Positions 1 through 24,096 of a DNA stretch of 43,064 bases are shown here, in pieces. Made by a program: the position numbers and the translations under genes. The first letter of the stretch is position 1; each line of letters starts with the position of its first letter. This DNA comes from Poseidonibacter ostreae (lineage in GTDB: Bacteria > Campylobacterota > Campylobacteria > Campylobacterales > Arcobacteraceae), in the NCBI RefSeq assembly GCF_009208075.1, contig NZ_WFKJ01000025.1:1-43064 (forward strand). Reading direction: 5' to 3'. The notes under the pieces are model-generated. The model did no database searches and had not been told where the DNA came from. It saw nothing but the letters and a program-made list of their open reading frames with translations.

Positions 1-38
1 CTTCGTGTCACTGTGTGTGTCACTTAATTTGGACGGGA

Positions 39-67
39 ATTATAGGAGATTTATCTACCTTTGTCAA
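39..67 (-). promoter_or_regulatory. Consensus sigma-70 promoter reading out of the left window edge
   Basis: Read on the minus strand, there is a perfect -35 TTGACA (62-67), a 17-bp spacer and a perfect -10 TATAAT (39-44). The same arrangement, followed by the same TTCC start, drives the tRNA-Asn cluster at 24124-24152. Such full-consensus promoters are rare in this AT-rich genome and usually serve stable RNA, so a tRNA or rRNA operon just left of the window is likely. That target is inferred and not visible. Confidence 0.75.
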
Positions 68-8170: not shown

Positions 8171-8214
8171 AGTATAACACATTTTGAAACAATATTGTTT
8201 CAAAATTGTTTCAA
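8171..8214 (-). promoter_or_regulatory. TRAP-operon promoter with GTTTCAA operator array
   Basis: A minus-strand -10 box TATACT sits at 8171-8176. Immediately upstream of it, 8181-8206 is a perfect 26-bp palindrome centred on AATATT. Half-sites are TTGAAAC at 8184-8190, GTTTCAA at 8197-8203 and GTTTCAA at 8208-8214. The last two form a direct repeat with a 4-bp spacer (AATT) and an 11-bp period, the layout used by PhoB/OmpR-type regulators. The array covers the -35 region, where an activator would bind. The same tandem occurs upstream of the neighbouring kinase gene (11978-11995). The regulator is inferred to be the response regulator at 8610-9314. Confidence 0.65.
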
Positions 8215-8609: not shown

Positions 8610-9314
8610 CTATTCTATAATATATCCTAGACCTTTTTTTGAAACAATAAAATCATCATCATGTACTTTATCTTTCACTCTTTTTATAACTGTACGCATT
8701 GTAGCATCAGAAGTTTTTACATCACTCCAAATAAACTCTTTTAAAAATTCTTTTGTTTTTATCTCTTTTATATTACTTGTTAGAGCTTGAAGTAAAAGTA
8801 TCTCTTTTTTAGAAAGGCTAATTAAATTTTCACCTTTATATAAAAGATTTGTTTTTGTATTAAATGAGTATGTTTTATTTAAATTTATTACTTCAAGTTC
8901 AACTTCAACTTTTGATTTATCTTCTAAGACTTTAGTTTTTACTTTTTTTAGAATTTCCATAATATTTTTAACTTCTAAAGGTTTTACAAAATAAGAGATT
9001 ACATTTAGACCAATTGATTTGAAAAGATACTCTTCATCTTTAAAAGCAGATACTATTATAAACTTTTGATTATCATTTAAATCTGTTATATCTTCAATCA
9101 TAGAAAGTCCATCTTTATTTGGCATTTTTATATCTGTTAAAACTAAATCAAAAGCTTTATTTTCCTCTAAAGAGTTTTTGTATTTATCAAATCCAATTTG
9201 CCCATCTTCAGCAATTTCAACTTCATCAAAAATTGTATCAAGATAAAAACTTAATATTTCTCTTGCGTCTTCTTCATCTTCTACTAATAATACTCTTGTA
9301 ATTAAATCATTCAT
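8610..9314 (-). CDS. OmpR/PhoB-type response regulator, partner of the adjacent sensor kinase
   Basis: A 234-residue protein. It has an N-terminal receiver domain (acidic pocket VEDEED at 11-16, phospho-acceptor D61 in LTDIKMPNKDG, Lys in FVKPLE) and a C-terminal winged-helix DNA-binding domain (about 140-234, ending KKGLGYIIE). It is co-transcribed with the kinase upstream (16-bp gap). The TAXI-TRAP operon lies next door. Two-component systems beside TRAP operons usually control them, and the GTTTCAA direct repeats at 8197-8214 and 11978-11995 are candidate binding sites. Target assignment is inferred from location and motif geometry. Confidence 0.92.
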   Translation of the reverse strand: MNDLITRVLLVEDEEDAREILSFYLDTIFDEVEIAEDGQIGFDKYKNSLEENKAFDLVLTDIKMPNKDGLSMIEDITDLNDNQKFIIVSAFKDEEYLFKSIGLNVISYFVKPLEVKNIMEILKKVKTKVLEDKSKVEVELEVINLNKTYSFNTKTNLLYKGENLISLSKKEILLLQALTSNIKEIKTKEFLKEFIWSDVKTSDATMRTVIKRVKDKVHDDDFIVSKKGLGYIIE

Positions 9315-9330
9315 CGTAATGTTAAGAAGT

Positions 9331-11961
9331 TTAAATATTTAAAGTGATGATAAACTTTACACCATCTTTAATATTTTCAACTTCTATTTTTCCTTTCATA
9401 TTTGTTTCTATAATGGATTTTGTCATATAAAGTCCAATTCCTGTACCTTGATGCTCAAATTTTGTAGTAAAATATGGCTCAAAAATTCTATCCATAATAT
9501 CATTTTTAATATTACCACCATTATTTAAAATCTCAATCCTTACTTTTTTATTTTCTTGTATTAAAGAGATATTTATACAAGCATTAAAGTTACTATTCTC
9601 ATCTTTTGTTAATATTGATTTTTTTGAAAGCAAAGCATCTTTAGCATTATTTAAAATATTTAAAATTGCTTGCTTTAACTCATTTTCATAATTAGTAATA
9701 ACAACATCATTTGAAATAAACTCTATTTTTATATTTTCTGATTCATATTGATTCTTAACCATATTTAAAAGCGTAGAAATACACTCTTTTAAACAAAATT
9801 CATTTGGAGTTTTCGAGGGTTTATAAAAGTTTTTAAAATCATCTATAGTTTCACTCATATATTCAATATGTGTATTAGCTCTATTCATAAACTTATCTAA
9901 TTTTTCACTGCTAACTGCTTCATTTTTGTAATTATCTCTTAAAAATTGTAAAATTAAAGACACATTATTTAAAGGTTGTCTCCATTGATGAGCTATGTTT
10001 CCTAGCATTTCACCCATTGAAGCTAATTTACTTTGTTGAATTAAAATTCTATCTTTATCTCTATTTTTTTTAACTTCCTCTTCAACTTTTAATTTTAGCT
10101 CTTCTTGACTTACTTTTATTTTAGTAATATCATTAATATACCCATAAAAATGACTTACATCTCCAGAGTGATTTTTAATCAATATAACTCTTGATGATAT
10201 CCATCTTATTTCATTTGCTGCATTTATTACTCTACAAACTATTGTAAAGTTTGGTAAATCATTTTTAAGTGCTGCATTTATTGCAACTTGCACTTTATTA
10301 ATATCATCTTTATAAATTAAGTTCATTAAACTCATTTGATTTGATTCAAATTCTTGCTTCGTATACCCAAAAGTCTTAATACTTTTTGATATATATTGTA
10401 TAGATAAATTTTTATTATTTACAAGTTTAAAGATAACAATCTTTCCATCTTCAACTAAAAGTTCTACATCTAAAAGCTCTTTTTTCATTCTCTTATTTTT
10501 ATCTATATCCATTGACATCATAAGCATTCTATCAAGTTCATTTTTATCATTTACAAAAGATTTACCACGAGCAAGAACCCATTTAAAACCTTCATTTTTT
10601 GTTTTAAGTCTATATTCACAAATAAAAGTATCATCATTTTTAGCAAAGATTTTGTCAAATAAGTTTTTAACTTTTGCTTTATCTTCATTATGAATAAGTT
10701 CAAACCAATCTGAAAATGTTTTAACTTCTTCTTTCTTATAACCAAACATATCAAGCCATTTATCTGAAAAATATATTTTTTCTGTTTTAAAGTCAATATC
10801 CCATAAACCATCATTTGACGCTATAATTGCTAACTCAAATCTTTTTTTCCAATGCTCTAAAGATACAGTTTTTGTTTGTAATTCATTATCATATTCATTA
10901 AATATGCTTTTTATAAAATTTGAAAAGATATATGTAAAAAGAATTAAAACAGCTGTTATAACTAAAATATAAATAAATATTTGAAATAAGAAATTTCTAT
11001 ATTCACGTTTTATATTAAAAACTAAATCTTTGATTTGATTATCTATAATACTTTTATCAAAAAAAGAGCTAATTAAAAAATTATATTTTTCATATATATA
11101 AGTTAAATTTTTAAACTTTTCTTTATATTCATAATCAATAAAATAGTGTTCTAATATTTCAAATGACATATTTTCTTTTTTTTCAAGTAAGAGTTCATTT
11201 GAATTTTTAAATATTTTGTTATTATTAAAATTATAAGTACTTTGAGAAATTATGTCATAAAACCAAATATTATAAGTATTTGTATTTATTGTATCTATAA
11301 TGGATTTTTTTGTGATTTCTTTTATAGAACTTATTGTAGAAAAAGATCCTACATAATACTCTTGCTTATCAATAACTATTTTATCAAAGAAACTAAGTCT
11401 TACTGTTTTTTGTAAATCATCTTTCCAGTATTGTAAATTATCTTTACCTTGAGAATATATATACTGTAGGATAATATCTTTATTCTTAGGAATTATTTTA
11501 GTATTAAATACTAATTTTTGTAAATAATTTATAGATTTTTTACCATATAATATATTTAATTCATTTTTTGTAAACATTACTACTTTAGTATTATTGTTTT
11601 TTTCAATTTGTTTTATATAGTTCTTAAGTTCGTCAATTTTATTTAAGTTATTAGCCTGAAAATATCCTATTACTTTATAAGTGATTTTTTTTAGTAATAT
11701 CTCTTCTTCTAAAAAAGCATTTTTTAGATTTTCTTTAACTTGATTTTTGAATCGTTGAAGTTCTTCTTTTTTATTAAACTCGTAGTTTAACAAAGCTTTT
11801 TGTTTTAATAAATCAATTTCTCTATTTTCTTTTGATTCTAAAATAAAAAATGAGATTACAAGTAAAACTAATGCAAGAAGCATTATAAAGAAAACGGGTA
11901 TTTGTGAGAAAAGTTTTTGAATGTCATTTAAGCTATATTTTTTATTACTTTTAAAAAACAT
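9331..11961 (-). CDS. Membrane sensor histidine kinase with periplasmic sensor and two PAS domains
   Basis: An 876-residue protein. TM1 is about 21-41, followed by a large periplasmic sensor (about 42-324, Cache-like), TM2 about 325-348 and a PAS/PAC domain about 370-495. A second PAS domain spans about 500-625. The H-box GNIAHQWRQPLNN carries phospho-accepting His658. The ATPase domain has N-box LNILNNAKDAL (about 766-776), EPYFTTK and the G2 box GTGIGL (about 839-844). The HQWRQPL form is typical of Campylobacterota and of DctB-like C4-dicarboxylate sensors. It probably senses the TRAP substrate outside the cell and phosphorylates the regulator at 8610-9314. The ATG at 11961 follows AAAAAAGG. 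Confidence 0.92.
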   Translation of the reverse strand: MFFKSNKKYSLNDIQKLFSQIPVFFIMLLALVLLVISFFILESKENREIDLLKQKALLNYEFNKKEELQRFKNQVKENLKNAFLEEEILLKKITYKVIGYFQANNLNKIDELKNYIKQIEKNNNTKVVMFTKNELNILYGKKSINYLQKLVFNTKIIPKNKDIILQYIYSQGKDNLQYWKDDLQKTVRLSFFDKIVIDKQEYYVGSFSTISSIKEITKKSIIDTINTNTYNIWFYDIISQSTYNFNNNKIFKNSNELLLEKKENMSFEILEHYFIDYEYKEKFKNLTYIYEKYNFLISSFFDKSIIDNQIKDLVFNIKREYRNFLFQIFIYILVITAVLILFTYIFSNFIKSIFNEYDNELQTKTVSLEHWKKRFELAIIASNDGLWDIDFKTEKIYFSDKWLDMFGYKKEEVKTFSDWFELIHNEDKAKVKNLFDKIFAKNDDTFICEYRLKTKNEGFKWVLARGKSFVNDKNELDRMLMMSMDIDKNKRMKKELLDVELLVEDGKIVIFKLVNNKNLSIQYISKSIKTFGYTKQEFESNQMSLMNLIYKDDINKVQVAINAALKNDLPNFTIVCRVINAANEIRWISSRVILIKNHSGDVSHFYGYINDITKIKVSQEELKLKVEEEVKKNRDKDRILIQQSKLASMGEMLGNIAHQWRQPLNNVSLILQFLRDNYKNEAVSSEKLDKFMNRANTHIEYMSETIDDFKNFYKPSKTPNEFCLKECISTLLNMVKNQYESENIKIEFISNDVVITNYENELKQAILNILNNAKDALLSKKSILTKDENSNFNACINISLIQENKKVRIEILNNGGNIKNDIMDRIFEPYFTTKFEHQGTGIGLYMTKSIIETNMKGKIEVENIKDGVKFIITLNI

Positions 11962-11975
11962 TCATTTACCTTTTT

Positions 11976-12015
11976 TAGTTTCAAAATTGTTTCAAGATGA
12001 ATTATATTGAAACAA
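11976..12015 (-). promoter_or_regulatory. Kinase-gene promoter with GTTTCAA tandem operator
   Basis: The minus-strand -10 box TATAAT is at 12001-12006. A TTGAAACAA half-site (12007-12015) abuts it upstream. The tandem GTTTCAA (11978-11984)-AATT-GTTTCAA (11989-11995) lies just downstream, about at +1 to +17. An 18-bp block is identical to the TRAP-promoter operator at 8197-8214. Binding downstream of the -10 box would block transcription, so negative autoregulation is suggested, opposite to the activator position at the TRAP operon. Confidence 0.6.
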
Positions 12016-17786: not shown

Positions 17787-18767
17787 CTACCCCCACAATG
17801 TATTTATAAAAAAGTAATATAATGGTATTCCCAATGAAATATTAAAAGGGAAAGTAATAGCTAAACTTAATGGTAAATATATTCCAGGATTTGCTTGAGG
17901 AACTGAAAGTCTCATTGCTGCTGGAACTGCTATATATGAAGCACTACCACTTAAAAGTGCTAAAAGAAATGCATCACCTTTTGAAAGCTGGAAAAAGTAA
18001 GCTAATGTAAGTGCAACTGAAGCATTTATAATAGGCATTACTAAAGCAAATGCAATTAAAAAGAAACCAACTTTTCTAAGTTCATATATTTTTCTAGCTG
18101 CTACTAGTCCCATATCTAAAAGGAAGAAAGCTAGGAAACCTTTAAATAAAGTTCCAAAAAGTGGCTCCATTGAAGTCCAACCTTTTTCACCTGTTAAAAT
18201 ACCAATAACTAAAGCACCGATTAATAAATATACTGAAGGATTTAAAAATGCTTCTCTTAAAATCTCTTTCCAATCAGTTTTATTCTCTTTGTCACTATTT
18301 TTGTCTTTTGCAAATACAGCAGCAAAAACTAAACCAATTACAATAGCAGGAGATTCCATAAGCGTCATGGCTGCAACCATATAACCACCATATTCTACAC
18401 CCATTGTTTGTAAATATGTAATTCCTGTAATAAAAGTAACTGCAGAAATAGAACCATAAGTTGCTGCAACTGCAATTGCATTATAAGTATCAAGTTTTCT
18501 TTTTAAAATAAAGTAACTATAAATTGGCACAAGCGTTGCCATGAAAATGGCTAATAATAAAGCTTTTAAGACATTTATGTCTAAACCACTTTTAGATAGT
18601 TCATATCCTCCATGTAGTCCTATTGCAATTAATAAATATAATGAAAATAGTTTTGGTAGGGGTTGTGGTATTGATAAATCTGATTTTAGAAAAACAGCAA
18701 GCATTCCTAAAAAAAAGAATAAAATTGGGGGATTTAGAATATTTTGTAAAATTATATCAATATTCAT
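17787..18767 (-). CDS. sbtA: Sodium-dependent bicarbonate transporter, SbtA type
   Basis: A 326-residue membrane protein with about ten hydrophobic helices in two inverted halves. It opens NILNPPILFFFLGMLAVFLKSDL and contains IGLHGGYELSKSG (about 52-64) and GSASYIAVPAAMR near the end, the two unwound-helix substrate-site regions of SbtA. The large cytosolic loop carries EN/DK-rich sequence (about 155-165). SbtA imports bicarbonate with Na+. It is followed 3 bp later by an SbtB-like PII protein and then purK and purE. AAAGGA lies 11 bp before the ATG at 18767. No carboxysome or RuBisCO gene is in the window. Confidence 0.88.
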   Translation of the reverse strand: MNIDIILQNILNPPILFFFLGMLAVFLKSDLSIPQPLPKLFSLYLLIAIGLHGGYELSKSGLDINVLKALLLAIFMATLVPIYSYFILKRKLDTYNAIAVAATYGSISAVTFITGITYLQTMGVEYGGYMVAAMTLMESPAIVIGLVFAAVFAKDKNSDKENKTDWKEILREAFLNPSVYLLIGALVIGILTGEKGWTSMEPLFGTLFKGFLAFFLLDMGLVAARKIYELRKVGFFLIAFALVMPIINASVALTLAYFFQLSKGDAFLLALLSGSASYIAVPAAMRLSVPQANPGIYLPLSLAITFPFNISLGIPLYYFFINTLWG

Positions 18768-18946: not shown

Positions 18947-18964
18947 TGTCAAGTATATGTCAAG
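18947..18964 (+). promoter_or_regulatory. TGTCAAG tandem operator upstream of the 27-residue peptide gene
   Basis: Two exact 7-bp direct repeats, TGTCAAG at 18947-18953 and 18958-18964, are separated by 4 bp (TATA). They end 69 bp before the ATG of the small open frame at 19034. The same repeat with the same spacing stands at 23708-23725 upstream of the nhaA operon, read in the nhaA direction. This resembles the Pho-box layout of OmpR/PhoB regulators, and the response regulator at 20483-21157 is the likely reader. The site also lies 180 bp upstream of divergent sbtA. Confidence 0.6.
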
Positions 18965-19033
18965 AAAACTACCCTTTTTAACTTTGCAAATATATTCTAA
19001 AATTATATTATATAAAATAAAAAAGGAAAAACA

Positions 19034-19117
19034 ATGGACTTCTTAAGAAATTTAATAATAATAAATTTTGTATTTTTTATAGGATTAGGTGTTTTAAGTA
19101 CTAGTATATCTGGTTAA
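19034..19117 (+). CDS. 27-residue single-pass membrane peptide
   Basis: A short open frame with a good ribosome-binding site (AAAAAGGAAAAACA before the ATG). It encodes a charged N terminus (MDFLRN), about 15 hydrophobic residues (LIIINFVFFIGLGVL) and a short polar tail (STSISG). This is the shape of a small inner-membrane protein. It ends 2 bp from the convergent sensor-kinase gene and is preceded by a TGTCAAG tandem repeat also found upstream of the nhaA-regulator-kinase operon. No family was recognised. A regulator of the kinase, in the manner of MgrB with PhoQ, or an NhaA accessory peptide are hypotheses only. Confidence 0.55.
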   Translation: MDFLRNLIIINFVFFIGLGVLSTSISG

Positions 19118-19119
19118 AA

Positions 19120-20493
19120 TTAAAAATATATACTAAAGATATTATGTGAATCTTTGTATTTGTGTTTTAGCTCAAATCCATGAAGGCTTAATATTTTATT
19201 TACAATATTTAAGCCTAAACCATGTCCTTGAACTTGGTTAGGCTCTCTTGTAAAAGGTTGGATATAATATATTAAATCATTAGAAAGTTTATTTGAAATA
19301 TTTTCAATATAAATTTCATTTTTACTACTATTTATCCTAATTGGAAACTCTATTGCGTATTTCATTGCATTATCAATTAAATTTTTAAGTGAAATTGTTA
19401 AGTAATAAAAATCTCCATTAATATCAAAATCATTTTCAATATCTACTATTACCTTTGACTCATCTACAATAGAAAGTTTTGATAAGGATTCAAGTATTAG
19501 ACTACTTGCTTTAAACTTAGTTATTTTTAAAACTGCAAAATTTAGTTTTTCTCTTTGTAATAGCTTACTTGTAAGCTTTTCTATATCATAAAAAATTGTA
19601 TTTATATCTTTTAATATTTTATTATCTTTATTTTCTAATTTTTCAATTATAAACTTCCCTTTGGCAATTGGGGTTTTTAATTCATGACTTATATTTCTTA
19701 ATAATTCTTCTCTTGAATATATAATATCAGCTTGTTTTTCTAAATAAGAGTTTAAATTTTCTGTTATCACACTAAGTTCATTATTTTCACCAATATCAAC
19801 TTTTATAGTTTTTTCGCTGTTTTTAAAAAGTTGTAAAACACCTTGATTAAGTTTATCAAGCTTATTTTTTATTTCATTTATTATTTTTGATGAAATAATA
19901 AAACTAAATAAAAATAAGATAATAAATAAAATCACTAATTCAAGTTTTATAGTATCTAGAAAATTTTCTCTTTTATTTTGTGTTTGATTTAGTTTATCTT
20001 GTAAGTATTTTATCTCTTTTTCAAGTAATTTTTGAGTATCTATATTTAGCTCTTCAAACTTTTTATTAAACTTATTAAAGTCATTATTTTGATTAATTAC
20101 TAAAGGATAAAGCTCATTTTTTATTAGATTCAACATTGTATCAAAATTAGCAAAAATCAAAACTAGATTCTTTTTTTCTTCTATTGACTCAGAGTTATTT
20201 ATAACTATAGTTTTAAGATTACTTAAACTTATAGAAAGATCACTTGCTTTATTTATTCTTTTATCAACTATTTGTATTTTATCAAAATCAGTAATTATAT
20301 CAAGGACTACCCAAGAGTAAGAATTACTATACTCTTTTAGTTTTTCTACCTTTATTAGTTGGTCATATCTATGATTTTGCTGGTAGTTAATACTATTTAG
20401 ATTATAAATTGTATAAAAAAACACTCCAATAATAAAAGTAACAATTAATAAGATTAAAGAGAAAGATATAAATAGTCGTTTTCTAATTGTCAT
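19120..20493 (-). CDS. Sensor histidine kinase, ArsS-like
   Basis: Starting at ATG 20493 the protein has 457 residues; a longer frame to 20559 lies entirely inside the response regulator gene and is unlikely. TM1 is about 8-30, the periplasmic helical sensor about 31-182 and TM2 about 183-202. A HAMP-like linker follows, then the H-box NISHELKTPIAKG with phospho-accepting His270. The ATPase domain has NLIDNAMKYA and GHGLGLNIV. The HELKTPIAKG form resembles the ArsS acid-sensing kinases of Helicobacter and Campylobacter. It overlaps the regulator gene by 11 bp, and nhaA heads the operon, so pH or Na+ sensing is a reasonable inference. Confidence 0.9.
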   Translation of the reverse strand: MTIRKRLFISFSLILLIVTFIIGVFFYTIYNLNSINYQQNHRYDQLIKVEKLKEYSNSYSWVVLDIITDFDKIQIVDKRINKASDLSISLSNLKTIVINNSESIEEKKNLVLIFANFDTMLNLIKNELYPLVINQNNDFNKFNKKFEELNIDTQKLLEKEIKYLQDKLNQTQNKRENFLDTIKLELVILFIILFLFSFIISSKIINEIKNKLDKLNQGVLQLFKNSEKTIKVDIGENNELSVITENLNSYLEKQADIIYSREELLRNISHELKTPIAKGKFIIEKLENKDNKILKDINTIFYDIEKLTSKLLQREKLNFAVLKITKFKASSLILESLSKLSIVDESKVIVDIENDFDINGDFYYLTISLKNLIDNAMKYAIEFPIRINSSKNEIYIENISNKLSNDLIYYIQPFTREPNQVQGHGLGLNIVNKILSLHGFELKHKYKDSHNIFSIYF

Positions 20494-21157
20494 AAAAAAA
20501 CTTATACCCAATACCCCAAATAGACTTAATATATTTAGGCTCTTTTGAATTATCATCAATTTTATATCTAATATTACTTATATGCATATCTACAGTTCTA
20601 TTTTTTGTATCTTCATTAAGTGAAGTTTTTTTTACTATATCTTCTCTTGAAATAATGTTATTTAAATTATTAATAAAAAGTAAAAATATCTCTTTTTCAA
20701 TTTTAGTAAACTCTATTTCAAGACCACTTAAAAAAACTCTTGAACTATTTATATCAATACTTAAATCATGTATTTTAAGAGAATCTGCTTTGTTATATCT
20801 TTTTAATGTAGCTTCAATTCTTAAAACAAGTTCTCTTGGTTCATAAGGTTTTGAAAGATAATCATCAGTTCCTAGTTCATAACCATAGATTTTATTACCT
20901 ATATCATCTCTTGCAGTTGAAATAATTATTGGTATATTTTTTATCTTTTTTAATTTCTTAAATAGATCAAAACCATCCATATTGGGAAGTCCTAAATCAA
21001 GTATTACTATTGTAAAATCATCTGGATTTTTTTGGAATAACTCTAAGGCATCCATTGGATTTGAAAAAGCACTACAAGAGTAATTATACTCTTGTAAATA
21101 CTCATTTATCAAGTTTTGTAAAACTAAGTCATCTTCAATAAGTAATACTTTTTTCAT
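20483..21157 (-). CDS. OmpR/PhoB-type response regulator
   Basis: A 224-residue protein. The receiver domain has acidic pocket IEDD (7-10), phospho-acceptor D54 in VILDLGLPNMDG and Lys in YLSKPYEPREL. The C-terminal winged helix (about 128-224) contains RTVDMHISNIRYKI and ends SIWGIGYKF, the usual recognition-helix and wing sequences. It lies 16 bp downstream of nhaA and overlaps the kinase gene, so nhaA-regulator-kinase form one operon. The TGTCAAG-N4-TGTCAAG sites at 18947-18964 and 23708-23725 are candidate targets. The name arsR is not given because the pH function is unproven. Confidence 0.92.
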   Translation of the reverse strand: MKKVLLIEDDLVLQNLINEYLQEYNYSCSAFSNPMDALELFQKNPDDFTIVILDLGLPNMDGFDLFKKLKKIKNIPIIISTARDDIGNKIYGYELGTDDYLSKPYEPRELVLRIEATLKRYNKADSLKIHDLSIDINSSRVFLSGLEIEFTKIEKEIFLLFINNLNNIISREDIVKKTSLNEDTKNRTVDMHISNIRYKIDDNSKEPKYIKSIWGIGYKFFYDN

Positions 21158-21173
21158 TCTTTTGCCTTTTTTA

Positions 21174-22508
21174 TTATGATACCTTCTTTGCTATGTATTT
21201 TAACCAAAAAAAGCCAAATAATCCAGCAAATAAGGAAGCACATAATATTCCAACTTTTGCTTGAAAAATAAGTTCAGGTGAGTTTATAAAAGCCAAGTCT
21301 GCAACAAAAATAGACATAGTAAATCCAATACCACCTAAAAAGGAAACACCAAATATTTGGCTCATTGTACTTCCACTTGGAAGTTGTGCTATTTTTAACT
21401 TAATTGCAAGCCAAGATATACCAAATATTCCAATTACTTTTCCTAATACAAGACCTGCGATAATTCCTATAGAAACAGGCTGTAGAACAGTAGAACCAAT
21501 AGAACTAAAATCAATTGCAATACCTGCATTTGCTAAAGCAAAAAGTGGAATAATAATAAGTGCAACAGGTAAATGTAGACTATGTTCTAACCTTGCAGCA
21601 GGTGTTCCAATTTCATCTATTTTATCTTTTATATTTAAAAGTATCGCTTTTTGATTTTCATCTATCATATGATTTTCTTGAATAGGATATTTTTCATACT
21701 CTTCAATCAAGTTTTTTGTATCTTTTGAAAAAGAAGCTGGAGCTCTTTTAGGTTTTGATGGAATTGTAAGTGCAGCTAAAACACCTGCAATTGTTGCGTG
21801 AACTCCAGACTCAAGCATGAAAAACCACATAAATAAACCAACTACAAAATAAGGCAGAATAGCATGAATTCCAAATCTATTTAATACTATCATTATAAAA
21901 AACATAGCTCCAGCTAATCCAAGTGGTAGCATATTTATAGTTTCTGTATAAAAAAGTGCAATTACTAAAACAGCTCCTAAATCATCAACAATTGCAAGTG
22001 CTACTAAAAATGTCACAAGTGCAGTTGGAACTCTTTTTCCTAAAAGAACAAGTGCACTAATAGCAAAAGCAATATCAGTAGCCATTGGAATTCCCCATCC
22101 ATTTGCACCTTGGGCACCTGTATTAAAATATAAATAAATTACTGCAGGAAATACCATTCCTCCAATAGCTGCAAGAATAGGTAACATTGCAACTTTTAAG
22201 TTTGATAATTCACCAGCTGTTATTTCTCTTTTAATTTCAAGACCAATAAGAAAGAAAAAGATTGCCATAAGACCATCATTTATCCAATGGTGTAAAGAGT
22301 GAGATAGAGCCCAAGAACCAACATTGAAATCTATATTAACATGAAAAAAATGTAAATAGCTTTCAGATAATGTAGAATTTGCTAAAATAAGTGCTAAAAT
22401 TGTCATAAATACTAGTATAAGTCCAGTTGTAGTTTGTGCATGTATAAAGTGTTCAAAAGGGGTAGCAATTCTACGAAATGCTTTTTCCCATGGTGCATAT
22501 ATTTTCAT
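21174..22508 (-). CDS. nhaA: Na+/H+ antiporter NhaA
   Basis: A 444-residue membrane protein with the NhaA core. It has GWGIPMATDIAFAI (138-151), the ion-binding aspartate pair D175-D176 in ALAIVDDLGAV, and the conserved Lys region near the C terminus (GGIGFTMSIFVADLAF). NhaA exchanges protons for Na+ or Li+ and sets internal pH in alkaline or salty conditions. The protein is longer than the E. coli form because of a charged cytosolic loop at about 255-315. It heads an operon with a two-component system. An IS30 element now sits 75 bp upstream of its start codon. Confidence 0.95.
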   Translation of the reverse strand: MKIYAPWEKAFRRIATPFEHFIHAQTTTGLILVFMTILALILANSTLSESYLHFFHVNIDFNVGSWALSHSLHHWINDGLMAIFFFLIGLEIKREITAGELSNLKVAMLPILAAIGGMVFPAVIYLYFNTGAQGANGWGIPMATDIAFAISALVLLGKRVPTALVTFLVALAIVDDLGAVLVIALFYTETINMLPLGLAGAMFFIMIVLNRFGIHAILPYFVVGLFMWFFMLESGVHATIAGVLAALTIPSKPKRAPASFSKDTKNLIEEYEKYPIQENHMIDENQKAILLNIKDKIDEIGTPAARLEHSLHLPVALIIIPLFALANAGIAIDFSSIGSTVLQPVSIGIIAGLVLGKVIGIFGISWLAIKLKIAQLPSGSTMSQIFGVSFLGGIGFTMSIFVADLAFINSPELIFQAKVGILCASLFAGLFGFFWLKYIAKKVS

Positions 22509-22580
22509 AATACTCCTAATAATTCGTTTTAGTTAAACTTCTAAGTTGAATGGGCGTATTATTTCAGTAAAGATATTAAG

Positions 22581-22583
22581 TGT
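22581..22583. repeat. Left target-site duplication TGT of the IS30 element
   Basis: TGT directly precedes the left inverted repeat and recurs at 23699-23701 after the right one. A three-base match alone is weak, but its length and position fit the family. Confidence 0.5.
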
Positions 22584-23698
22584 CCCCAATTCAAATCATA
22601 AATGCATAAATTCTAGAAGTAAGGTGTTAAGAAGGGTTAACTAAATATTAGATATCCTTTTTCACCACAAAATAGGAAAATATTTATGAAAAAATTCACA
22701 CAGTTAACCCTAAAAGAACGATATCAAATATCTGCTTATATTAAAGTTGGATACACCCAAAATGACATAGCAAAATTATTAGATAAATCTCAATCAACAA
22801 TAAGTAGAGAGATCAGTAGAAATAGTAAACATAATAAATATCAAGCTGAAGTTGCTGAACAGTTAACTTTTACTAGACACAATAAGAAAAACAAGTTTGT
22901 AAAACTCACCAAAAAAGCTAAAATTTATATTCAAGAGAAATTAAAATTAGATTGGTCTCCAGAACAGATATCAGGTGTTATGAAAAAACAAAAGCTTTCA
23001 TATGCAGTATCTTATGAAACTATATATCGATACATTTACCATAACAAAAGTTGTGGAGGAAGATTATATTTTAGGCTAAGACATAAAAATAAAAAGTATC
23101 ACAAAAGAAGCAGCGATTATAATACTAGAGGTATTATCAAGAATAGAATTTCTATAGATAAAAGACCAAAAATTGTTGAAAGAAAAGCAAGAGTTGGAGA
23201 CTGGGAAATTGATACAGTAATTGGAAAAAATCATAAAGGTGCATTAGTTACTATTGTTGATAGAAAATCAAAGTTTGCACTTATAAAAAAAGTACAAAGT
23301 AAACATGCCAACATCGTTTCTAAAGCTACTATTGATATGTTACTCCCTATAAAAACCTTAACTCATACAATAACATCAGATAATGGAAAGGAGTTTGCTT
23401 ATCATGAAGAAATTTCCAAAGCTTTAGATACAGACTTTTACTTTGCGAATCCATATCATTCATGGGAAAGAGGATTAAATGAGCATACAAATGGTTTAAT
23501 ACGTCAGTATTTACCAAAGAAAACAGACTTTACAAAAGTTGAAGATGGAAAGATTAGATTTATACAAGATAGATTAAACAATCGGCCTAGAAAAGTTCTT
23601 GGATTTAAAACTCCTGCAGAAGTTTTTTATGCTACAATTTTTAAGAAATTATCAGCTTAATTTAGTTGGAGTTTATGCATTTATCTCTTGAATTGGCG
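22584..23698. mobile_element. IS30-family insertion sequence, complete
   Basis: A 1115-bp element with one transposase gene. The terminal inverted repeats are CCAATTCAA-3 bp-ATAAATGCATAAA at the left (about 22586-22614) and its imperfect complement at the right (about 23668-23696), with about 24 of 29 positions matching. TGT flanks both sides (22581-22583 and 23699-23701), consistent with the 2-4 bp target duplications of IS30 elements. The exact outer base is uncertain by 1-2 bp. It lies between nhaA and the operator-like repeat at 23708. Confidence 0.85.
22686..23660 (+). CDS. IS30-family transposase
   Basis: A 324-residue intact DDE transposase. The N-terminal helix-turn-helix (LTLKERYQISAYIKVGYTQNDIAKLL, then SQSTISREI) is the IS30 start. 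The catalytic triad is D176 (in GDWEIDTVIG), D232 (in ITSDNGKEFA) and E266 (in GLNEHTNG), with the usual 33 residues between the last two. No frameshift or stop interrupts it, so the element may be active. AATAGGAAAA precedes the ATG. It binds the terminal repeats at 22584-22614 and 23668-23698 and moves the element through a circular intermediate in studied IS30 members. Confidence 0.95.
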   Translation: MKKFTQLTLKERYQISAYIKVGYTQNDIAKLLDKSQSTISREISRNSKHNKYQAEVAEQLTFTRHNKKNKFVKLTKKAKIYIQEKLKLDWSPEQISGVMKKQKLSYAVSYETIYRYIYHNKSCGGRLYFRLRHKNKKYHKRSSDYNTRGIIKNRISIDKRPKIVERKARVGDWEIDTVIGKNHKGALVTIVDRKSKFALIKKVQSKHANIVSKATIDMLLPIKTLTHTITSDNGKEFAYHEEISKALDTDFYFANPYHSWERGLNEHTNGLIRQYLPKKTDFTKVEDGKIRFIQDRLNNRPRKVLGFKTPAEVFYATIFKKLSA

Positions 23699-23707
23699 TG
23701 TATATTT

Positions 23708-23725
23708 CTTGACAAGTACTTGACA
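23708..23725 (-). promoter_or_regulatory. TGTCAAG tandem operator, former upstream site of the nhaA operon
   Basis: Read on the minus strand (the nhaA direction), this is TGTCAAG-TACT-TGTCAAG: two 7-bp repeats with a 4-bp spacer, matching 18947-18964. If the IS30 element and one TGT copy are removed, the site would end 81 bp before the nhaA start codon, close to the 69 bp seen at the peptide gene. The plus-strand reading also gives two TTGACA hexamers, so a promoter -35 reading is possible, but no gene follows on that strand. Confidence 0.55.
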
Positions 23726-23807: not shown

Positions 23808-23882
23808 TGGCTCCGGCACCTGGATTCGAACCAGGGACCAAATGATTAACAGTCATCTACTCTACCACTGAGCTATGCCGGA
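23808..23882 (-). tRNA. tRNA-Asn(GTT), copy 3 of 3 in transcription order
   Basis: A 75-nt minus-strand cloverleaf. The acceptor stem is TCCGGC/GCCGGA, the D-loop region AGCTCAGTGGTAGAG, the anticodon loop CTGTTAA (anticodon GTT) and the T arm GGTTCGAATCC; the CCA end is encoded. It is identical to the copies at 23913 and 24022. Confidence 0.97.
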
Positions 23883-23912
23883 ATGTAAGTATAATTTCTA
23901 AATTTAAAAAGA

Positions 23913-23987
23913 TGGCTCCGGCACCTGGATTCGAACCAGGGACCAAATGATTAACAGTCATCTACTCTACCACTGAGCTATGCCGGA
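23913..23987 (-). tRNA. tRNA-Asn(GTT), copy 2 of 3
   Basis: Identical in all 75 positions to the flanking copies, with anticodon GTT and encoded CCA. It is separated from its neighbours by unrelated AT-rich spacers of 30 and 34 bp. Confidence 0.97.
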
Positions 23988-24021
23988 ATCTAATAAATTT
24001 ATAAAACATTAAAAAGGTTAA

Positions 24022-24096
24022 TGGCTCCGGCACCTGGATTCGAACCAGGGACCAAATGATTAACAGTCATCTACTCTACCACTGAGCTATGCCGGA
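24022..24096 (-). tRNA. tRNA-Asn(GTT), copy 1 of 3
   Basis: The first gene of the cluster, 27 bp downstream of a consensus -10 box. It is identical to the other two copies, with anticodon GTT and encoded CCA. Confidence 0.97.

Follow-up and report, generated by a model that had tools for sequence, protein, structure and literature searches.

Organization of the nhaA locus

The window, that is, the whole stretch of 43,064 nucleotides analyzed here, derives from Poseidonibacter ostreae and contains an operon encoding NhaA, a response regulator (RR) and a histidine kinase (HK). An exact copy of a two-repeat element, TGTCAAG-N4-TGTCAAG, lies at each of the two ends of this nhaA-RR-HK locus, and the copies are referred to below as operators A and B. 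The features of the locus are as follows:

18947–18964, plus strand: operator A, TGTCAAG-TATA-TGTCAAG, exact, upstream of the peptide gene; top match of promoter model R1 in the genome
18983–18988, plus strand: TTTGCA, a TTKACA-type element and probable inverted third half-site, fixed at +19..24 in 47 aligned promoters
18998–19003, plus strand: TAAAAT, the -10 element of the peptide promoter, fixed at +34..39 in the 47 aligned promoters
19034–19117, plus strand: gene for a 27-aa membrane peptide, MDFLRNLIIINFVFFIGLGVLSTSISG, recognized by conservation at orthologous loci, coding constraint and a profile match (E 3.5e-11)
19120–20493, minus strand: sensor histidine kinase, likely start ATG 20493, with two TM helices, a helical-bundle sensor, HisKA and HATPase_c
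20483–21157, minus strand: OmpR/PhoB-type response regulator (Response_reg and Trans_reg_C), whose recognition helix is common only to the SHP-operon RR
21174–22508, minus strand: NhaA Na+/H+ antiporter (PF06965, E 4.7e-149)
22566–22571, minus strand: TTTACT, what is left of the TTKACA element in the nhaA core promoter, separated from operator B by the IS and recognized by comparison with orthologous nhaA promoters
22584–23697, plus strand: IS30-family insertion (transposase ORF 22686–23660; HTH_38 and rve; imperfect terminal inverted repeats; ACAC flanks)
23708–23725, minus strand: operator B, TGTCAAG-TACT-TGTCAAG, exact, belonging to the nhaA-RR-HK operon; second-ranked R1 match, truncated by the IS

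Domain analysis places the regulator in the OmpR/PhoB family, with a receiver domain (PF00072) and a winged-helix Trans_reg_C domain (PF00486). The kinase scores above the curated cut-off for HATPase_c and just below it for HisKA, and its gene, which probably starts at ATG 20493, overlaps the end of the regulator gene, as for a cognate transmembrane kinase. Its TM helices lie near residues 7–25 and 176–196, and it has a helical sensor predicted with a pLDDT of about 90. The closest solved structures to this sensor are the helical-bundle ligand domains of MCPs (Z about 16, in a fold for which high scores come easily), a similarity that suggests the fold class of the predicted sensor and does not reveal its signal. 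In this genus, the peptide gene adjoins the gene for an SbtA-type Na+-dependent bicarbonate transporter (17787–18767), which is Na+-coupled and has no operator. Three nearly identical tRNA-Asn(gtt) genes stand in tandem on the minus strand at 23808–24096.

Within 22520–23707, the IS30 element separates operator B, which lies 10 bp upstream of it, from the nhaA core promoter (TTTACT). The -10 region of nhaA also differs from that of its orthologues: the expected -10 is replaced by GCCCATTCAACTTAG, which resembles the end of the IS and is perhaps the scar of an earlier insertion. In this strain, the nhaA-RR-HK operon is probably without its normal control, with the peptide promoter intact. A promoter scan for what drives the operon behind the IS yielded matches at the shuffle level only.

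Two exact operators in the genome

An earlier reading of the window, made from the sequence alone, had placed the exact element at 18947–18964 and 23708–23725, in identical orientation relative to the downstream gene, and all of this holds. Operator A reads into the 27-codon ORF, which is convergent with the kinase, and operator B reads towards nhaA. The spacings proposed at that time were likewise correct: 69 bp from operator A to the peptide ATG at 19034, and 81 bp from operator B to the nhaA ATG at 22508 once the IS30 element is removed together with a single copy of its ∼4-bp target duplication (ACAC). The genome-wide scan that this reading had called for returned only these two exact copies in the 2,958,551 bases (2.96 Mb) of the genome, while a reversed-pattern control over the whole genome gave 0 exact matches. 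Within the window, no match at 1–2 mismatches was found beyond the two exact copies (mean of 0.25 matches at ≤2 mismatches in 100 window shuffles).

Relaxing the search to one mismatch adds two sites in the whole genome, of which one precedes a paralogous two-component operon. At ≤3 mismatches there is no clear excess (178 sites, versus 159 for the reversed control), and most of the 2-mismatch sites of this genome lie inside genes or outside any promoter context. A 1-mismatch site at C1:48812 (L094 5802–5830; G000:C1:48801–48829) lies between two genes of the minus strand and consists of three 11-bp half-sites in a row, and neither a promoter frame nor a small gene was found behind them.

A second two-component system (TCS) in the window, with the same 7+4+7 pattern in a different sequence, had also been proposed. 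GTTTCAA-AATT-GTTTCAA indeed occurs exactly at 8197–8214 and 11978–11995, adjoining the gene of a TAXI-type (NMT1_3) binding protein as well as an RR/PAS-kinase pair (8610–11961). It is likely another operator, whose period is again 11 bp.

Conservation across Arcobacteraceae

A search of 104 Arcobacteraceae genomes identified exact TGTCAAG-N4-TGTCAAG sites in 22 and kinase orthologues (E < 1e-100) in 29. When sites were mapped at up to 2 mismatches, about 20 of the 29 orthologous loci showed one upstream of the operon, typically 70–100 bp before nhaA, and about one third of the TCS loci had no clear site there. Nearly all orthologous loci carry a second site at the 3' end of the kinase gene. 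In the window's genus and its neighbors this second site runs against the direction of the kinase; in other genera it falls within about 40 bases past the kinase stop and reads onward. In either direction, the next gene is usually a 25–27 aa peptide that starts 61–81 nt further on, behind a Shine-Dalgarno sequence. In three genomes (G092, G067 and G035), a second NhaA (about 45% identical) takes the place of the peptide after the site, and in both cases checked by Pfam a CPA2 exchanger with TrkA_N lies further downstream. Poseidonibacter lekithochrous (G093/L197), from the same genus as the window, is among the relatives with the locus.

A fixed promoter frame downstream of the operator

The 47 aligned promoters contain no indels and define the frame TGTCAAG-N4-TGTCAAG, N18, TTKACA, N9, TATAAT. 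With positions numbered from the operator's final base, a T at +11 is invariant, TTKACA occupies +19..24 (T, T and C invariant, final A in 98%) and TATAAT occupies +34..39. At 9 nt, the spacing from TTKACA to TATAAT falls short of the 16–18 of a sigma70 -35 element. On its other strand TTKACA reads TGTMAA, and because its variants there, TGTAAA and TGCAAA, match variants of the half-site, the element is a probable inverted third half-site.

R1, a sequence-only model built from 46 of these promoters with this genome held out, ranks operator A first in this genome (E 8.3e-13, 49.9 bits), followed by the IS-cut operator B (E 0.0017) and the paralogous TCS operon (E 0.006). Near the genome's two further NhaA genes (C13 and C88), R1 gives no match at E ≤ 10.

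These data bear directly on the alternative that the repeats are ordinary -35 elements, such as many promoters would carry, or products of chance. In its favor, CTTGACA read on the opposite strand gives the half-site, and the base composition of the genome is AT-rich. The element nevertheless has just two exact copies in this genome, lies in the orientation opposite to TTGACA and upstream of the core promoter, and keeps its position across genera within an invariant frame. Ordinary -35/-10 pairs at the same loci peak at N17, yet 34 of the 45 TTKRCA-N9-TAWAAT pairs carry the operator. Nor are the repeats absent upstream of orthologous genes, the other outcome that the sequence-only reading had set against itself: they are conserved before IS-free nhaA operons and before orthologous peptide genes. 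A -35 or chance origin is refuted by this cross-genus conservation, and we assign it practically no probability.

A conserved membrane peptide

Profile A2 (E < 1e-8) detects the peptide in 24 family genomes, all 24 of them among the 29 with the kinase, and it stands beside the operator wherever coordinates were compared. The orthologues are 25–27 aa long, with one TM segment and no frameshift. Coding constraint is evident: pS exceeds pN in 145 of 153 pairs, and differences per codon position amount to 0.40, 0.22 and 0.52, figures that are descriptive since the pairs are non-independent. The 27-aa peptide has no Pfam match. It is a conserved, previously unnamed peptide, too short for usual gene calling, that probably acts in the membrane.

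Two observations point to different partners. The peptide is kept at TCS loci without nhaA (L057, L059, L063, L065 and L207), which favors the kinase; in G067 it precedes antiporters rather than standing at the kinase, which favors the antiporters. A role as kinase feedback regulator (MgrB-like) and one as antiporter accessory (KdpF-like) appear about equally likely.

Antiporter families behind one operator

Genomic neighborhoods in relatives extend the set of genes behind the operator. In G067, one strong R1 match is followed by the peptide and a PF03553 Na+/H+ antiporter, and another by the peptide and an Mrp operon (annotated MnhE, MrpF, MnhG, MnhB-type and Proton_antipo_M subunits); G059 repeats the latter layout. 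A second kind of peptide, 29 aa long with one TM segment (MPIVDLVLFGFIGVVLIVSLVGFFIYNSK and relatives, M.IVD.VLFGFIGV..), lies behind the same promoter frame in three genomes:

L180, 2530: second-kind 29-aa peptide of G068
L181, 2308: second-kind 29-aa peptide of G069
L178, 1725: second-kind 29-aa peptide of G067

Outside the family, G331 (L207 3551–5908) encodes an RR and an HK that share 85% and 75% identity, respectively, with those of the window, and its sites precede the peptide MEFLRNLILLDVVIFGGLALLLNLFQN and a divergent operon of Mrp layout, named from its gene order and from protein starts resembling those of L178 rather than by Pfam. This combination of RR/HK, Mrp-like operon, both operators and peptide looks like horizontal transfer of a module.

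Across relatives, four unrelated antiporter families (NhaA, Mrp, PF03553 and CPA2) thus stand behind one operator; Na+/H+ exchange, serving Na+ export and pH homeostasis, is therefore the most likely output of the TCS. Exceptions occur in G035, G072 and G073, where a site precedes non-antiporter genes, and a gapless scan found no clear target gene for the weaker R1 matches (G060:C39, G060:C18, G022:C16, G022:C19, G054, G061:C36:3044, G084 and G099).

The G073 exception touches on a second alternative, in which the sites would be PHO boxes of the phosphate regulator PhoB. The PHO box is an 18-nt operator of two 7-nt direct repeats spaced 4 apart with a TGTCA core (PMC4415409), which matches the 7+4+7 geometry and core found here, and the gene cluster downstream of the G073 site includes a PBP_like_2 (PstS-like) gene. 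Against this, the two PstS-like genes of the present genome (C70 and C102) have no R1 match at E ≤ 10 nearby, and the conserved targets are Na+/H+ antiporters. We consider PHO boxes a very improbable explanation.

A paralogous cytochrome system with the same operator

Among about 29 aligned OmpR-type RRs of this genome, the recognition helix of the window's regulator, KNRT(V/I)D.HISN.RYKI.D, recurs only in the RR of the SHP/diheme-cytochrome system (58% identical). In this genome, the corresponding operon on C1 encodes DUF1924, DHC, cytochrome b561-DHC, RR and HK (L093 4276–8640; G000:C1:12275) and is preceded by the operator TGTCAAGAATATGTTAAG, with 1 mismatch. R1 also has matches at similarly arranged operons from further families within the order. 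In A. butzleri and C. fetus, the SHP operons are known to include a rare sensor type, SK3 (PMC2909971).

In the phylogenetic tree, the nha-type RRs all group together in a clade with support 100/99, next to the SHP type, with long branches that leave the exact root unsure. The two regulator types share a common ancestry; the window's RR and HK sit with nhaA and outside the SHP operon, and the SHP system keeps its own pair. Given the shared helix, the shared operator and the RR tree, the nha system looks like a duplicate of an SHP-type system that kept its operator. The presence of SHP RR/HK and the same operator in the same cell makes crosstalk possible, and a cell with two paralogous systems that carry a single operator sequence offers a natural test of how crosstalk is avoided or used.

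This paralogy raises a third alternative, that the sites belong mainly to the SHP-type RR, with redox control of the nhaA-linked genes, or are shared by both RRs. The identity of the recognition helix and the operator upstream of the SHP operon would fit such an arrangement. However, the peptide is confined, within the family, to genomes with the nha-type kinase; the full TTKACA-N9-TATAAT frame goes with nha-type loci, the SHP promoters having no clear TTGACA; and many genomes possess the SHP system yet no nha-type site. Exclusive control by the SHP-type RR is unlikely, shared use less so, and we hold the alternative as a whole to be improbable, if less so than PHO boxes.

A proposed sodium/proton-export regulon

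The explanation that we favor with considerable confidence is that the linked two-component system acts through the repeats as its operators, and that its PhoB-like RR activates a compact sodium/proton-export regulon. In geometry and conservation, the sites agree with the tandem 11-bp direct repeats expected for an RR of the OmpR/PhoB family. Binding of the sites by the regulator at 20483–21157 is strongly implied by linkage, recognition helix and co-occurrence; we infer it, together with activation rather than repression, and likewise the signal and the peptide's partner. In the proposed mechanism, the kinase, with its periplasmic helical-bundle sensor, would phosphorylate the regulator, which would then bind a head-to-tail pair of 11-bp units (each TGTCAAG + 4 nt) located about 45–65 bp upstream of the putative transcription start, probably helped by the inverted TTKACA half-site near -25. 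The bound regulator would activate its own nhaA-RR-HK operon, an autoregulation, and also the separate promoter of the 25–27 aa membrane peptide.

The regulon first proposed for the nhaA-linked TCS is thereby supported, and its extent proves wider than proposed, taking in other Na+/H+ antiporter families in relatives and the paralogous cytochrome TCS. A further proposal, to which we give an even chance, is that the peptide founds a new family of TCS-controlled membrane peptides tuning Na+/H+ antiporters or the sensor kinase, and that TCS, operator and peptide form a portable module placed before NhaA, Mrp, PF03553 and CPA2, having arisen by duplication from a redox (SHP) system with the operator unchanged. 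This gives marine Arcobacteraceae a concrete regulon for sodium/proton export that can be put to the test.

Comparison with known systems

A literature search found no paper joining Arcobacter, nhaA and two-component. MgrB is a small membrane protein controlled by a TCS on which it could feed back (MgrB-PhoQ); the peptide resembles it as a small membrane protein under a TCS, a likeness of arrangement. NhaR is a LysR-type one-component regulator. Dedicated control of nhaA is common to E. coli and the present locus, exerted in the first by a one-component regulator and in the second probably by a TCS. In E. coli, nhaA is under NhaR control at high salt and high pH (PMC6307784).

With PhoB and the PHO box, the present system shares an OmpR-family RR, a 7+4+7 operator and the TGTCA core. 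Unlike them, it is directed at Na+/H+ antiporters and a peptide, in a fixed TTKACA-N9-TATAAT frame. The SHP/diheme-cytochrome TCS (SK3 type; Arcobacter, Campylobacter) has an RR that is a paralogue and shares both recognition helix and operator, but it controls a cytochrome operon from promoters lacking a clear TTGACA and has no peptide. KdpDE controls the cation transporter KdpFABC together with KdpF, a one-TM peptide of ∼30 aa (PMC3618439). No Kdp genes were found among the annotated proteins of the locus, where the RR neighbor is NhaA, which sets the present system apart from KdpDE/KdpFABC itself. The two systems nonetheless resemble each other in that a TCS controls a cation transporter and a one-TM peptide; they differ in that the transporters here are Na+/H+ antiporters instead of a K+ pump, and that a separate promoter and operator usually serve the peptide.
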